NCBI GenBank assembly: GCA_031288865.1
Contig: JAITQN010000141.1
Span: 1 to 38,650, forward strand
Reading direction: 5' to 3'
DNA length: 38,650 bases
Origin: Prevotellaceae bacterium
GTDB lineage: Bacteria > Bacteroidota > Bacteroidia > Bacteroidales > UBA932
Position 1 is the first letter of the stretch; every line of letters begins with the position of its first letter. A program made the translations under genes and the position numbers. The notes under the pieces are model-generated. The model did no database searches, was not told the DNA's origin, and worked only from the letters and a program-made list of their open reading frames with translations. Below, in pieces: positions 1 to 34,943 of the stretch.

Positions 1-246
1 GTTCTCCCGGAGCGTCGCGGAAACCGAACACTGCAGTGTTTGTTCTCCCGGAGCGTCGCGGAAACCGAACACTGCAGTGTTTGTTCTCTCACGATGCGTG
101 GGACTCCGAACACTGCAGTGTTTGTTCTCTCACGATGCGTGGGACTCCGAACACTGCAGTGTTTGTTCTCCCACGACGCGTGGGACACCAAACAACTACT
201 CGTTTGTTCTCTCACGACGCGTGGGACATCAAACAACTACTCGTTT
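1..246. repeat. Tandem array of six 41-bp two-hairpin repeats
   Basis: Six contiguous 41-bp units lie at 1-41, 42-82, 83-123, 124-164, 165-205 and 206-246, each beginning GTTCT and ending GTTT. Every unit has two palindromic parts. The first, in units 3-6, pairs TCYCACG with CGTGGGA around a 3-base loop. Unit 5 has a C-G pair where units 3, 4 and 6 have T-G, so pairing is kept while sequence changes. The second is AACACTGCAGTGTT in units 1-4; in units 5-6 it is replaced by CAAAC and GTTTG around a different loop. The array is followed by CAGTCC. The same unit length and the same CAGTCC flank recur at 32684-32771. Because 41 is not a multiple of 3, all frames stay open and produce repetitive spurious ORFs. 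The left end is cut by the window. Confidence 0.9.
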
Positions 247-340
247 CAGTCCTACGCCTTGGGCGCGCGGTTGTGCCCCGCCCGAGGGGGTATTGCCCCC
301 AATTTCATTAAAAAGTATGTGATTATTGCCCCTATTTTCG

Positions 341-373: not shown

Positions 374-1306
374 ATGAAAATAAAAATTTTACTACTCTCT
401 ACCGTGTTGGTCGTAGCGCTCGTTTCGGGCTATGCCCAGGTCAAAGTCACGCAAGTGGAAGCACAGGTGCAGGCGCCTGCCGAAACGGAAAAAGTGTTGA
501 AGAGAAAAGTTGCCATTTCCCGCTTTTCTAACGAAACGCAGTACGGCAAAGGAATTTTCTACGACAAGGAAAACGACCCCATGGCGAAACAGGCGTTAGA
601 CATTCTGACAACCCGCCTTGCCGCTACCGGAAAGTTTATTTTGTTGGAACGCTCGGATATCGACAAAGCCATGTTTGAGGCGGAAGGCGCGGAGGCAAAG
701 CGTCCGGAGGTGCCGGCCGATTACATTATTGTGGGGTCTATCACGCAATTCGGGAGAAAGAACACCGGCGACGTAAACCTCATTTCGCGTGCCAAGACCC
801 AAACCGTAGAAGCGGCTGTCAGCCTTCGGTTGATAGATGTTTCGTCGGGACAGATTATTTATTCGGAAGAAGCCAAAGGGTCTGCCGAAACGAAATCAAA
901 AACGACATTCGGCGTCGGCGGTTCGGCCGATTTCGACGCCACGCTGAGCGATAAAGCTATCTCGGCCGCCATCTCCCAGCTCACCGAAAACATTATCAAC
1001 AACTGCATGGACAGGCCTTGGAAGGCTTACTTCCTGGTTGTAGACGACGGCGTTTATTACGTGTCGGGCGGGAAAACACAAGGCTTAAATGCGGGCGATT
1101 TGTTCATCGTAAAGGAAAAGGGGAAGTCTGTGAAAAATCCGCAAACAGGCCTGCAAATGGAGCTTCCCGGCAAGACGGCGGGGAAAATAAAAATCACGCT
1201 CACGGGCGGCGATACGGTAGATAACGAATTTTCCATTGCGGAATTTGTAGAAGGCGGAATTGATGAAACACAACTTTCAAAATACTATATAGAGGAGGCT
1301 AAATAA
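374..1306 (+). CDS. CsgG/HfaB-family lipoprotein-operon protein
   Basis: A 310-residue secreted protein of the CsgG/HfaB family (curli assembly/transport-like). The N-terminus is a signal peptide with a hydrophobic stretch at about 4-18 ending in SGYAQ, so it looks like a type I signal rather than a lipobox; no Cys follows. The CsgG domain covers about residues 45-215 (VAISRFSNET, LERSDIDK, ADYIIVGSITQF, LRLIDVSSGQIIYSEEAKG), and a C-terminal region of about 90 residues follows. CsgG proteins form outer-membrane pores, but many relatives outside curli systems have unknown roles. Its stop overlaps the next ATG by one base. The following DUF4810 and GNA1162 genes match the three-gene arrangement known in Neisseria (NMB1164-NMB1162), which supports the family call. 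No csgA/B-like gene is in view, so calling it a curli exporter is not justified. Confidence 0.85.
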   Translation: MKIKILLLSTVLVVALVSGYAQVKVTQVEAQVQAPAETEKVLKRKVAISRFSNETQYGKGIFYDKENDPMAKQALDILTTRLAATGKFILLERSDIDKAMFEAEGAEAKRPEVPADYIIVGSITQFGRKNTGDVNLISRAKTQTVEAAVSLRLIDVSSGQIIYSEEAKGSAETKSKTTFGVGGSADFDATLSDKAISAAISQLTENIINNCMDRPWKAYFLVVDDGVYYVSGGKTQGLNAGDLFIVKEKGKSVKNPQTGLQMELPGKTAGKIKITLTGGDTVDNEFSIAEFVEGGIDETQLSKYYIEEAK

Positions 1307-24998: not shown

Positions 24999-25727
24999 TT
25001 ACGATTTATCCTTAACGCATCTAACCTGTAGACCGGCAAATCGGTCATTGTAGTGCCATCCGGTGTGTCCCCATATAGTAATGCACGATATTGCAAATTT
25101 CGGATAGCGCTCATCAGCATCAGACGACCAGTATCTGGTAGCATGATATACACCACGTATTCTATCTGGGAGGGCAAAACCGCCATAACCCCAAACGGCG
25201 CCAAACGTATTGAGCGTAGTTTGTGTTTCGCCGGATAAATATGACGTCAGGTCTTCAAAGTCGGTCTTCGTAGGCACGCGCCACGGTGAGGGACACATCA
25301 CAGCCTTGTTTGCGTTCACATACGGCCAGTTGTAATAATAATAGGTCTTCCCGGTTTCGGAGTTGGTATAGCTGCGGCATTGCGGCTCGGTATCGCTTTC
25401 TTCAAAAGTTTTTTTGTCACATTCCGGGCAATGAACGGCGTCGCTCCACGTTTGGTTGCCGAATGTCCACGCTTGGTCGCTGGCGAAATAGTGTGAGGCC
25501 CCGGCTTTTTCATTGTCGCCACTCTTGCAGCCGGCAATCGCTGCCGCGACGAGGAGAACGGCAAGTGCAGAAACATTTTGCGCGCTTGCAGAAACATTTT
25601 GCGCGCTTGCAAAAACATTTTGCGCGCTTGCAGAAACCTTCTGCGCGTTTGCAGAAACCTTCTGCGCGTTTGCAGAAACATTTTGCGCGTTTGCAGAAAT
25701 CTCCTGTGTGAAAATTGATTTGTTCAT
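24999..25727 (-). CDS. FISUMP-domain lipoprotein with heptad-repeat N-region
   Basis: A 242-residue predicted lipoprotein, using the ATG that gives MNKSIFTQEIS (a TTG three codons upstream is the only alternative). Residues 11-52 are six imperfect heptads of the type S-A-x-A-Q-x-V, encoded by a 21-bp DNA repeat. A hydrophobic stretch SALAVLLVAAAIAGC follows, whose AIAGC is a good lipobox. The signal peptide therefore has an N-region of about 50 residues, far longer than usual. The mature part carries a FISUMP domain: CPSPWRVPTKTDF, YWSSDADERYP, and the ending GLQVRCVKDKS. The ligand is unknown. The start codon lies in an 18-bp inverted repeat shared with the divergent pseudogene at 26021, and a consensus promoter about 300 bp upstream (26037-26067) points at this gene. 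Confidence 0.82.
   Translation of the reverse strand: MNKSIFTQEISANAQNVSANAQKVSANAQKVSASAQNVFASAQNVSASAQNVSALAVLLVAAAIAGCKSGDNEKAGASHYFASDQAWTFGNQTWSDAVHCPECDKKTFEESDTEPQCRSYTNSETGKTYYYYNWPYVNANKAVMCPSPWRVPTKTDFEDLTSYLSGETQTTLNTFGAVWGYGGFALPDRIRGVYHATRYWSSDADERYPKFAISCITIWGHTGWHYNDRFAGLQVRCVKDKS
25566..25691. repeat. 21-bp tandem repeat (six units) inside FISUMP lipoprotein gene
   Basis: Six contiguous 21-bp units start at 25566, 25587, 25608, 25629, 25650 and 25671, with a decayed seventh at 25692-25712. On the plus strand each begins TGCARAAAC and ends GCGCGYT. They fall into two subtypes (GCGCGCT in units 1-3, GCGCGTT in units 4-6), which indicates recent local duplication. All frames on both strands are open. 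In the gene frame they encode the heptads before the lipobox. Confidence 0.9.
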
Positions 25728-31500: not shown

Positions 31501-31875
31501 ATGTGTATGGAAGATGTTTTAATCCCCGGGTTCGTTTTTGCAACGCCTGTGCTTATTGTATGGATTGCTATGCTGTTTCAATGGAAGAACGAGCAAGCGA
31601 GAACCCAACTCATTGGAAAAGCGCTTGAACTTGGAAAAGAAATTGACCCGGCATTGCTGGTAAGACCGGTTAAACAAAAGAAGCAAAACGCCAACCGGTT
31701 ATTGGCATGGGGAATTACGCTGGTGAGCTTGGGGCTGGCCGTGTTCGGCTCGGTATTGTTATTGACCGACTTGAGGTGGGCTTCCTTGTCGTCCTTGCTG
31801 TCATTCCCCGGCATCGGGCTGCTGATTGTGCATGTATTGACGCGGAAAAGTAAAACAGCTCGAATTGGAGAATAA
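31501..31875 (+). CDS. DUF6249-like membrane protein (sigma-factor neighbour)
   Basis: A 124-residue protein with an N-terminal membrane segment (about 9-26, FVFATPVLIVWIAMLFQW), a charged cytoplasmic-looking middle (EQARTQLIGKALELGKEIDP, then basic KQKKQNANR), and two more membrane segments (about 67-88 and 94-112). The layout resembles DUF6249 proteins encoded next to ECF sigma factors in Bacteroidetes. I am moderately sure of this family name. Two ATGs (codons 1 and 3) are possible starts. Its 3' end overlaps the sigma factor by 11 bp. The near-consensus TACCTTTC at 31452-31459 may be the promoter. Confidence 0.7.
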   Translation: MCMEDVLIPGFVFATPVLIVWIAMLFQWKNEQARTQLIGKALELGKEIDPALLVRPVKQKKQNANRLLAWGITLVSLGLAVFGSVLLLTDLRWASLSSLLSFPGIGLLIVHVLTRKSKTARIGE

Positions 31876-32365
31876 CACCTTTGAACGGTTTGTAGCGCAA
31901 CAGCAGGAGCCTTTGCGAAGGTTCCTGCTCAATCTTTGTGCGGGCAATCGTGCGCTGGCCGACGACCTTGCGCAGGATGCCTTTATTAAGGCCTACATCA
32001 ACCTTCCGAGTTTTAAGGGACGCTCAAAGCTATCGACATGGCTGTTCCGCATTGCCTATAATTGCTTTTATGACCACATTAAAAGCGTAAAAAACCAACA
32101 GGCCGATCCCGTCGAAAAATACGCCTATAAGTTATATACAGAAGACCCGGCTTGCAACGAAACCGATAAAACATTATATTTGGCGTTGGAAAAACTGAAT
32201 AATAAAGAACGGGAGATTGTGCTACTTTTCTACATGGAAGAAAAATCTTTGAAAGATATTGGCATAATTACAGGCCTCCCCGCGAACACGGTAAAGTCAC
32301 ACCTGCGGAGGGCCAAAGCGCATTTAAAAACATACTTGACACAATTGGGATATGAAAAAGGATAA
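31865..32365 (+). CDS. ECF-type RNA polymerase sigma-70 factor
   Basis: A 166-residue sigma factor with region 2 at about 15-75 (ALADDLAQDAFIKAYINL, STWLFRIAYNCFYDHI) and region 4 at about 105-160 (LNNKEREIVLLFYMEEKSLKDIG, ANTVKSHLRRAKAHL). There is no region 1.1 or 3, as in extracytoplasmic-function sigma factors. The start is a TTG inside the end of the upstream gene (11-bp overlap), which implies translational coupling. The downstream small membrane protein overlaps by 14 bp and is a candidate anti-sigma factor. The stimulus is unknown. Confidence 0.92.
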   Translation: MENNTFERFVAQQQEPLRRFLLNLCAGNRALADDLAQDAFIKAYINLPSFKGRSKLSTWLFRIAYNCFYDHIKSVKNQQADPVEKYAYKLYTEDPACNETDKTLYLALEKLNNKEREIVLLFYMEEKSLKDIGIITGLPANTVKSHLRRAKAHLKTYLTQLGYEKG

Positions 32366-32684
32366 CATCACACGATTTATGCAAATGCATAAACAGCACA
32401 TTGAGGACAATGGTTTCACCGGGAAACTCACCAATCAGCTCAAATATTATCCGCAAGCGCGGAAGATGGTCACGACAAAATCGGTCGTTGCGCTCATTGT
32501 GCCGTGCTGCTCGCTGCTGGCCGTGTGTGTGGTGTTGCTGCTGGGCGGCTGGCAAATACCTTTTGACACCTTGTTGAAGGCAATAGCTTCGCCAAACCCG
32601 CTTGCGCTCATGCTATGCGGTTTGACAACTATAGCACTCATGTTCTCCCTAACCTTGCCCATCTGGATTGAGGATAGCCTGTAG
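32352..32684 (+). CDS. Small two-span membrane protein, candidate anti-sigma factor
   Basis: A 110-residue protein. Its N-terminal 40 residues are polar (MKKDNITRFMQMHKQHIED), followed by two membrane segments (about 44-67 and 78-104). Overlap with the sigma gene, the size and the cytoplasmic head plus membrane tail are those of small anti-sigma or sigma-linked proteins of Bacteroidetes (DUF5056-like); sequence alone does not prove it. The stop codon's last base is the first base of the 41-bp repeat array at 32684. Confidence 0.65.
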   Translation: MKKDNITRFMQMHKQHIEDNGFTGKLTNQLKYYPQARKMVTTKSVVALIVPCCSLLAVCVVLLLGGWQIPFDTLLKAIASPNPLALMLCGLTTIALMFSLTLPIWIEDSL

Positions 32685-32765
32685 GTTTGTATCGACGCCG
32701 GATGTTCCAAACACTGCACTGTTTGGTTTCCCGGAACGCTGGGTGCTCCAAACACTGCATTGTTT
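32684..32765. repeat. Second locus of the 41-bp palindromic repeat (two units)
   Basis: Units at 32684-32724 and 32725-32765, both 41 bp, both starting GGTTT and ending CCAAACACTGCAYTGTTT. The flank CAGTCC (32766-32771) is the same as after the array at 1-246. The CCAAACA and TGTTTGG arms of the first unit form a hairpin. As at the first locus, the array sits between a stop codon and the promoter of a gene for an exported protein. Confidence 0.85.
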
Positions 32766-32826
32766 CAGTCCGACATCAAGCTTTGCGGGGGCGGCTGGGT
32801 CATTTCCCCGATTGGGAATAAATGCG

Positions 32827-32864: not shown

Positions 32865-34943
32865 ATGAAAAAAAAATCTTTAATTTTTATGGTCATGGCC
32901 GGAATATTTATGTCATGTGCGGATAACAATCCGTTTTTTGCAACATGGGAGACGCCTTACGGTGTACCCCCTTTCGAAGAAATAAAAAACGAACATTTTC
33001 GTCCTGCATTTGAAAAAGGCATTGCCCAATTGCAAGCCGACATTCAAAAAATTGCAGACAACGCCGAGGCGCCCACGTTTGAAAATACCGTTGTGGCGAT
33101 GGACAATGCCGGCGCGCTCTTAAGTAAGGTGATAGGCGTATTTTTCAACGTGCTGAGCTCCGACTCCGACGCCGAACGGCAAGCTATTGCACAGGAAGTT
33201 TCGCCGAAACTGTCGAAAAGCTCGGACGACATTTATTTGAATGAAAAACTATTCGCCCGCGTGAAAGCGGTATACGAACAAAAAGACCGGCTCAATCTGG
33301 ATGTGGAATCGGCAAGCCTGTTGGATAAGGTTTACAAGACCTTCGCACGCAACGGCGCCAACCTGAACGACGCGGAAAAGGCAACGCTACGGAAAATTAA
33401 CGAAGAGTTGTCGCTGCTGAGCGTTCAATACGGACAAAATGTGTTGGAAGACAACAATGCCTTTCAAATTGTAGTGGATAACGAAGCCGACTTGGCAGGC
33501 CTTCCGGCCGGCGTGGTACAGGCTGCCGCTGAAGAAGCCAAGGCCAGAGGACTGGAGGGCAAATGGGTGTTTACGCTCGACGCGCCCAGCCGTATTCCCC
33601 TGCTGCAATATGCAGACAAGCGCGAACTCCGCGAAAAAATGCTGAAGGGATATGCCCACAAAGGCAATAACGACAATGCCTACAACAATAAAGAGGCGGT
33701 TCAAAAAATCGCTTCGCTGGAATACCAAAAGGCGAAACTACTCGGCTATGCCGACTACGCGTCGTTTGCACTGGAAGACCGGATGGCCAAAACGCCCGAA
33801 GCCGTAAATGTGTTTCTGAAAAAACTGTGGGAACCCACCCGGAAAGTAGTGGCTAAGGAATTGGCCGAATTGCAAAAAACAGCCGGTGCGCTGGGACAAA
33901 AAGAACGGATAGAAGCATGGGACTGGTGGTATTACACCGAGAAATTGAGGAAAGCGAAATTTGACCTCGACGAAGAGCAAATCCGTCCTTATTTCCAACT
34001 CGAAAATGTACGCGATGGCGCTTTTATGGTGGCCAACAAATTGTTTGGCATCTCCTTTGAAGAAGTGTCTCTTCCGAAGTTTAACCCCGAGGCCACGGCA
34101 TACCTCGTGAAAGATGCCGACGGCAGTGAACTCGGTATTTATTATACCGATTACTTCCCGCGAGCCAGTAAGCGCGCCGGCGCATGGATGAATAATATTC
34201 GTGAGCAGTATGACAATGTGCGCCCCGTGATTGTGAATGTTTGCAATTTTACAAAACCCACGGCCGACGCGCCTTCGCTGCTGACTATCGACGAAGTGGA
34301 AACCCTGTTTCACGAGTTGGGGCACGCCATTCACGGCCTCTTGTCGCAGTGCAAATACCAGTCGGTTTCGGGCACCAACGTGTTGCGTGATTTCGTAGAG
34401 CTGCCTTCGCAAATCAACGAAAACTGGGCGATGCACCCCGAGGTGTTAAAGATTTATGCCAAGCATTACGCCACAGGCGAAGTCATCCCCGATGATTTAA
34501 TTGAGAAGATACAAAAATCGAAGAAATTCAATCAAGGCTTTACCACCTGCGAATTTCTGGCGGCCGCCATCCTCGACATGGACTGGTACACCTTGCAAAC
34601 CGACGAATTGCAGGACGTAGAGGCCTTCGAAAAGGCGGCGATGGATAAGATAAACCTGACGTATGCCATCATTCCGCGCTACCGCAGCACCTACTTCACG
34701 CACATTTTCGGCGGCGGTTATGCGGCGGGCTACTATAGCTACATTTGGGCCGAAGTGCTCGACGCCGACGCCTTTCAGGCGTTTCTCGAAACCGGTGATG
34801 TGTTTGACCAAAAAACCGCACAGGCTTTCCGGAAAAACATCTTGGAACGTGGCGGCAGCGAAGATCCGATGACCCTTTACCGCAGGTTCCGCGGCAAAGA
34901 CCCCGACGGCAACGCCCTTTTGGTGAACCGCGGGCTGAATTAA
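32865..34943 (+). CDS. dcp: M3-family peptidyl-dipeptidase (Dcp-like) lipoprotein
   Basis: A 692-residue zinc metallopeptidase of family M3, which removes C-terminal dipeptides from oligopeptides. The start chosen gives MKKKSLIFMVMAGIFMSC, a lipoprotein signal with Cys at about 18; the longer frame upstream reads through the repeat region and is not credible. The zinc motif is HELGHAIH near 485 with the downstream Glu in DFVELPSQINENW. The segment FGGGYAAGYYSYIWAEVLDADAF is the family's C-terminal substrate-site region. Length equals that of E. coli Dcp. Predicted site of action is the periplasm or outer membrane. It stands alone downstream of the repeat pair and converges with glyA. Confidence 0.93.
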   Translation: MKKKSLIFMVMAGIFMSCADNNPFFATWETPYGVPPFEEIKNEHFRPAFEKGIAQLQADIQKIADNAEAPTFENTVVAMDNAGALLSKVIGVFFNVLSSDSDAERQAIAQEVSPKLSKSSDDIYLNEKLFARVKAVYEQKDRLNLDVESASLLDKVYKTFARNGANLNDAEKATLRKINEELSLLSVQYGQNVLEDNNAFQIVVDNEADLAGLPAGVVQAAAEEAKARGLEGKWVFTLDAPSRIPLLQYADKRELREKMLKGYAHKGNNDNAYNNKEAVQKIASLEYQKAKLLGYADYASFALEDRMAKTPEAVNVFLKKLWEPTRKVVAKELAELQKTAGALGQKERIEAWDWWYYTEKLRKAKFDLDEEQIRPYFQLENVRDGAFMVANKLFGISFEEVSLPKFNPEATAYLVKDADGSELGIYYTDYFPRASKRAGAWMNNIREQYDNVRPVIVNVCNFTKPTADAPSLLTIDEVETLFHELGHAIHGLLSQCKYQSVSGTNVLRDFVELPSQINENWAMHPEVLKIYAKHYATGEVIPDDLIEKIQKSKKFNQGFTTCEFLAAAILDMDWYTLQTDELQDVEAFEKAAMDKINLTYAIIPRYRSTYFTHIFGGGYAAGYYSYIWAEVLDADAFQAFLETGDVFDQKTAQAFRKNILERGGSEDPMTLYRRFRGKDPDGNALLVNRGLN

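Follow-up and report, generated by a model that had tools for sequence, protein, structure and literature searches.

Arrays of 41-bp two-hairpin units in a Bacteroidales-like genome: a probable intergenic minisatellite family with REP/BIME-like structure

Introduction

BrickBuilt, a repeat of Porphyromonas gingivalis, consists of spacer-free intergenic tandem units of 23 bp, about two helical turns, found at some 20 to 30 loci in one species, with long predicted stem-loops and partial leaders and tails (PMC4596501). REP/BIME elements with a GTAG/CGTC tag and a cognate RAYT are extragenic palindromes that form mosaic clusters, show complementary changes in their stems, and are distributed unevenly and near gene ends (PMC3733652, PMC2817692); for BIME-2, a role as a platform for gyrase or a nucleoid protein has been proposed. 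The tandem repeats of archaeal Borgs evolve fast, are intergenic as well as genic, and when genic stay in frame, often in exported proteins (PMC9879509). Heptamer repeats are length-preferred intergenic direct repeats for which slippage has been proposed (PMC4679880 and work cited there). The repeats described here resemble each of these systems in part. We found no description of this hairpin repeat family in this bacterial group, but only open-licence literature was covered, so that this lack of mention is a weak argument for novelty.

The window analysed here, 38,650 nucleotides, is the whole of one contig (C133) of a fragmented metagenome-assembled genome (G000; 1.63 Mb, 167 contigs, 71% complete). 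Bacteroidota-type promoter-like sequences, which read TACCTTTGCA, and the genes flanking the arrays suggest that the host is a Bacteroidales-like bacterium.

Results

The first of two arrays in the window (array 1; 1..246, forward strand) consists of six 41-bp two-hairpin units, at 1-41, 42-82, 83-123, 124-164, 165-205, and 206-246, and is cut at position 1 by the contig end. Unit 1 is identical to unit 2, and unit 3 to unit 4. Array 2 (32685..32765, forward strand) has two diverged units of 40 bp (32685-32724 and 32726-32765). Both arrays end in GTTT, as predicted, followed directly by CAGTCC (247..252 and 32766..32771, both forward strand). The core said to be common to all units, AACACTGCA, is present in units 1 to 4 of array 1 and in array 2; units 5 and 6 have a different second hairpin, with AACAACTACTCG where AACACTGCA is expected. 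The reported C-to-T change, which gives T.G in the same stem, was confirmed. Hairpin-forming ability is modest in single units (z from +0.8 to -2.3); the array as a whole folds strongly (z -10.6), but mostly because neighbouring copies pair with each other. When the window was searched with Rfam, only tRNAs reached gathering scores, and the repeat units matched no family.

Downstream of array 1, and outside the repeat, is a CsgG-domain gene (374..1306, forward strand; Pfam CsgG, E = 4.6e-22) for a predicted exported protein with the N-terminus MKIKILLLSTVLVVALVSGYAQ; the gene upstream is out of sight because the contig ends within the array. Array 2 abuts the stop codon of a gene with a weak DUF5056 match (32352..32684, forward strand), just before which lies an ECF-type sigma factor gene (31865-32365). 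It is followed, again outside the repeat, by the gene for a predicted lipoprotein, a Dcp-like M3 family peptidase (32865..34943, forward strand; Pfam Peptidase_M3, E = 1.2e-128; NCBIfam Dcp model score under the cutoff). A position ahead of a gene for an exported protein, first noted for both arrays, is not general: many arrays elsewhere in the genome have genes of housekeeping type on both sides or follow such a gene.

Searching the G000 contigs with a covariance model of the eight window units detected dozens of further units, well beyond what chance would give, with E values down to 2.5e-12. A second, broader model, built from 50 different units, gave 111 matches, which fall into about 30 intergenic arrays; a few of these matches are to the opposite strand of the same palindromes, and because some arrays lie at contig ends, two entries may be pieces of one array. 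The further copies that the original prediction called for are thus present, as about 110 units in about 30 arrays. Each unit, of 41 or 42 bp, has the order short linker, hairpin A, CC-containing linker, and hairpin B. Examples of hairpin A are TCTCACG-ACG-CGTGGGA, TCTCGCA-GCT-TGCGGGA, and CCAGA-GCG-TCTGG; those of hairpin B include AACACTGCAGTGTT, AAACGCCACGGCGTTT, AACCAAGGTTGG, and CCATCCGAA-CA-TTCGGACGG. The two hairpins alternate, their centres about 20.5 to 21 bp, or half a unit, apart.

The stems are maintained among copies in part. Over the 50 distinct units, 78.8% of cells are paired, versus 69.6% in shuffled and at most 61% in slid comparisons, and double-sided changes affect 69 cells versus 28, although these counts are inflated by the kinship of the units, whose changes are not independent events. 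The clearest compensatory columns change from G-C to C-G (10/16), from A-U to G-C (11/15), and from C-G to A-U (32/38), whereas at columns 8/19, 9/17, 29/41, and 31/39 roughly half of the units, or more, have lost the pair. Stem retention could alternatively be read as a function under selection. In one rival reading, the arrays would be transcribed and act in mRNA ends as terminators or stabilisers, retained for the sake of the genes that they follow. The compensatory changes that preserve some hairpins are consistent with this, as is a nonsignificant lean of the flanks within 250 bp toward gene 3' ends (17, versus 8 gene 5' ends; P = 0.11; counted by hand from the gene-call output plus the DUF5056-match gene). 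However, both array orientations occur: where both neighbours were called, seven arrays lie between co-directional, four between convergent, and two between divergent genes, array 2 being counted as divergent because our custom gene caller did not call the DUF5056-match gene, when it truly lies between co-directional genes. Wobble pairs favour no single strand, with 21 G.T and 14 A.C in hairpin A and 11 G.T and 18 A.C in hairpin B, which together with the mixed orientation argues against an attenuator. As the arrays are also missing beside the orthologous genes of relatives and match no Rfam family, we consider such an RNA element very unlikely, and the mRNA 3'-end or attenuation role first suggested has become weak.

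Relations among the copies point to local homogenization and shuffling. Mean unit identity is 0.886 within arrays, 0.917 between adjacent units, and 0.698 between arrays, and the within-array value exceeds all 2,000 label permutations (highest, 0.744). Many different combinations of A and B hairpin types are seen; GGARCGTCGC, for example, occurs with at least six B types. Flank pieces of 58 to 125 bp are common to different loci, with identities of up to 98%. Leaders and tails are likewise common to subsets only, and the tails are of at least three types.

The array ends are less uniform than the window suggested. CAGTCC follows the two window arrays only, CAGTCT follows four, and most other arrays end differently; a CAGTC form thus ends 6 of about 30 arrays and is always on the right. 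On the left, runs of at least seven C stand within 80 bp of 7 of 28 arrays, versus four runs in 201 kb of other contigs. These left poly-C runs and right CAGTC ends give the arrays a polarity, which keeps a MITE-like origin in play; in this respect a part of the arrays resembles an element whose ends are defined rather than a product of slippage alone. In such an origin, a nonautonomous MITE, built like BrickBuilt from a minisatellite core between a leader and a tail, would be moved in trans by an insertion sequence transposase. Near-identical three-unit arrays with differing outer flanks on several contigs would fit this, as would GGTATACCCCCC, five of whose six sites in the genome lie directly before arrays. 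The restriction of leaders and tails to subsets, the several tail types, and the failure to recognise terminal inverted repeats by eye at the array ends speak against it, and we regard a MITE as rather unlikely.

Several other repeats occur around the arrays or in other intergenic stretches. Poly-C tracts of 7 to 17 C lie to the left of the arrays at loci L053, L054, L065, L066, L072, L074, and L118, and are also found at L209 and L153:6242; in some cases the tract is followed by AATCAGYTAATTACRGC, which recurs near G000 arrays, and in a same-genus genome (G003) the same pair precedes a 21-bp array by about 130 bp. A second dispersed intergenic palindrome, approximately CGTGTTGTCGGGTTGCACCCGCCAACACGATAAAG, adjoins arrays together with TTTATCC repeats, in the flanks of L059, L060, L063, L070, L073 to L076, L119, and L120. 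Heptamer repeats (approximately TTAACTC, TATGAAG, and TTTCAAC) are the commonest short-period intergenic repeats, found in many such stretches, for example at L061, L118, and L168, and sometimes form inverted pairs around a GC-rich stem.

We investigated the distribution of the array family among relatives by DNA search and with the second covariance model. It is absent from the four same-genus genomes (G001 to G004) and from 30 of 31 other sampled genomes of the bacterial family. A genome of another genus, G018 (94% complete), has 18 matches to the second model and, in addition, 41/42-bp arrays that follow this plan but differ in sequence. Two genomes of other families, G043 and G053, gave one low-score match each, which we did not take as members. 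Beside orthologous genes in the same-genus genomes the arrays are missing, but the neighbouring DNA has changed too, including the far flank, so that same-genus synteny yielded no clean empty site in which both flanks were preserved. The commonest hairpin had no match in a collection of viral contigs and a single, lone match in a collection of genome contigs, in Planobispora, which is probably due to chance.

The original prediction had raised the possibility of REP-like elements mobilised by a RAYT, a Y1 transposase. A single Y1_Tnp gene was found in G000 (C72:6654-6998), about 500 bp from an array, and this proximity made it a candidate. However, the gene is surrounded by palindromes of its own, GTCCC(N4)GGGAC, with five of their six genome sites there and the sixth, a single copy, in C153. 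Its protein matches the NCBIfam IS200 model and scores only 37.6 against a cutoff of 80 with REP_Tyr_transpos. G018 has arrays and no Y1_Tnp gene, whereas all four same-genus genomes have Y1_Tnp and no arrays of this family; a Y1 gene may have been missed in G000, which is 71% complete, compared with 94% for G018. No constant GTAG (or CGTC/TGTC) tag was found, the bases before hairpin A varying among GTTC, CGTG, TGCT, GGTT, CGTT, and others. The RAYT reading failed both the cognate-palindrome and the presence/absence tests; it is contradicted, and we hold it to be extremely improbable. The IS200-type Y1 gene and its five palindromes (L073:900-1550, on C72) may form a transposase-REP unit of their own.

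Unit length recurred in a census of sampled contigs, in which we counted arrays of at least three copies, with periods of 18 to 70 bp (the cutoff of 18 being chosen after the data were seen), outside long ATG-started open reading frames. The sample includes contigs picked earlier, namely, the window itself and G003 contigs from previous searches, and several arrays sit at a contig end. G000 gave periods of 41, 21, and 21 bp; G018, seven of 21, three of 42, and two of 23; and G003, five of 21 and one of 42. Thus, 19 of the 21 arrays in these three genomes have units of 21 or 41/42 bp, and most of the unit sequences look unrelated, although not all arrays are independent, since L230 and L258 in G018 are related and GTAGCTACACATT units occur in both G018 and G003. 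G002, of the same genus, had one array with a period of 23 bp. In 260 kb from six further genera of the family the only such array had a period of 35 bp, and 140 kb from five other families contained none. Twenty-one-base-pair repeats also occur within genes. A separate array of 6.4 copies in the window (25566..25699, reverse strand) encodes seven-residue repeats (approximately SANAQNV) in a Fib_succ_major lipoprotein, where they follow the N-terminus and precede the lipobox, and a probably coding array in G003 (L152:8577-8792) places its repeats after a signal-like N-terminus.

We tentatively propose that in this bacterial family a mechanism may exist by which new arrays, whatever their sequence, receive units of two helical turns (21 bp) or of twice that length, the 41-bp arrays being dimers; the length-setting step could be, for example, a replication-linked or protein-bound duplication. 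The recurring 21-bp period with unrelated units could also reflect phased protein-binding or topological sites, with dyads every 20.5 to 21 bp offering a nucleoid protein or gyrase a platform. Of 12 unit types tested, 7 have their two best dyads spaced at half a unit to within 0.5 bp, for which chance is about 7% each, but several of the 12 types are related and therefore not independent. The dyads of simple 21-bp arrays are only weakly above shuffled sequences (Fisher P = 0.018), and unit sequences vary widely, which makes such a platform improbable.

Discussion

Taken together, the arrays are probably a young, fast-evolving, lineage-specific, noncoding hairpin minisatellite of REP/BIME or BrickBuilt type that has spread through slippage and recombination. 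During replication, single-stranded DNA would fold into hairpins that promote slippage and unequal exchange; arrays would thereby grow and become more homogeneous, while exchange between intergenic repeats could carry modules and flanks to new sites. Counting against this reading, no clean empty site was found that would show insertion as a unit, and a part of the arrays has recurring left and right ends. Effects on transcripts, from bidirectional, terminator-like stem-loops at gene ends, would be secondary at most. Three other kinds of element were considered and rejected: the units have no recombination-core pattern of integron attC sites; they are contiguous, with both halves repeated and no unique spacers, as a CRISPR array would have; and coding repeats do not fit a length of 41, which is not a multiple of three, or the location of most arrays outside called genes.

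The original observation was thus confirmed in part, and of its interpretation the REP/BIME likeness stands, the RAYT does not, and the attenuator is weak. A REP/BIME-like mosaic with no detectable RAYT bears on whether such mosaics can originate free of a transposase. What most deserves to be taken further is the constant unit length. Because it is fixed at 21/41/42 bp across arrays with seemingly unrelated sequences, one can test whether DNA geometry or a protein footprint determines the unit length of bacterial minisatellites.

Among known systems, Borg repeats share with ours the traits given above, but their units are perfect and of varied length, whereas ours are divergent and nearly always of 21 or 41/42 bp. 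The heptamers differ by their 7-bp length, and these genomes contain repeats of both classes. The description "REP/BIME-like" fits: the arrays are dispersed, mainly extragenic, clustered, mosaic, imperfect palindromes, with stems partly kept through compensatory changes. They differ in having neither a constant GTAG/CGTC tag nor a cognate RAYT and in alternating two different hairpins head to tail. With BrickBuilt they share a spacer-free tandem minisatellite core that is intergenic and species-limited, with stem-loops, a similar number of loci, and partial leaders and tails; here, however, the unit is not 23 bp but 41/42 bp with two hairpins and many module types, without a common leader/tail pair or recognised terminal inverted repeats.
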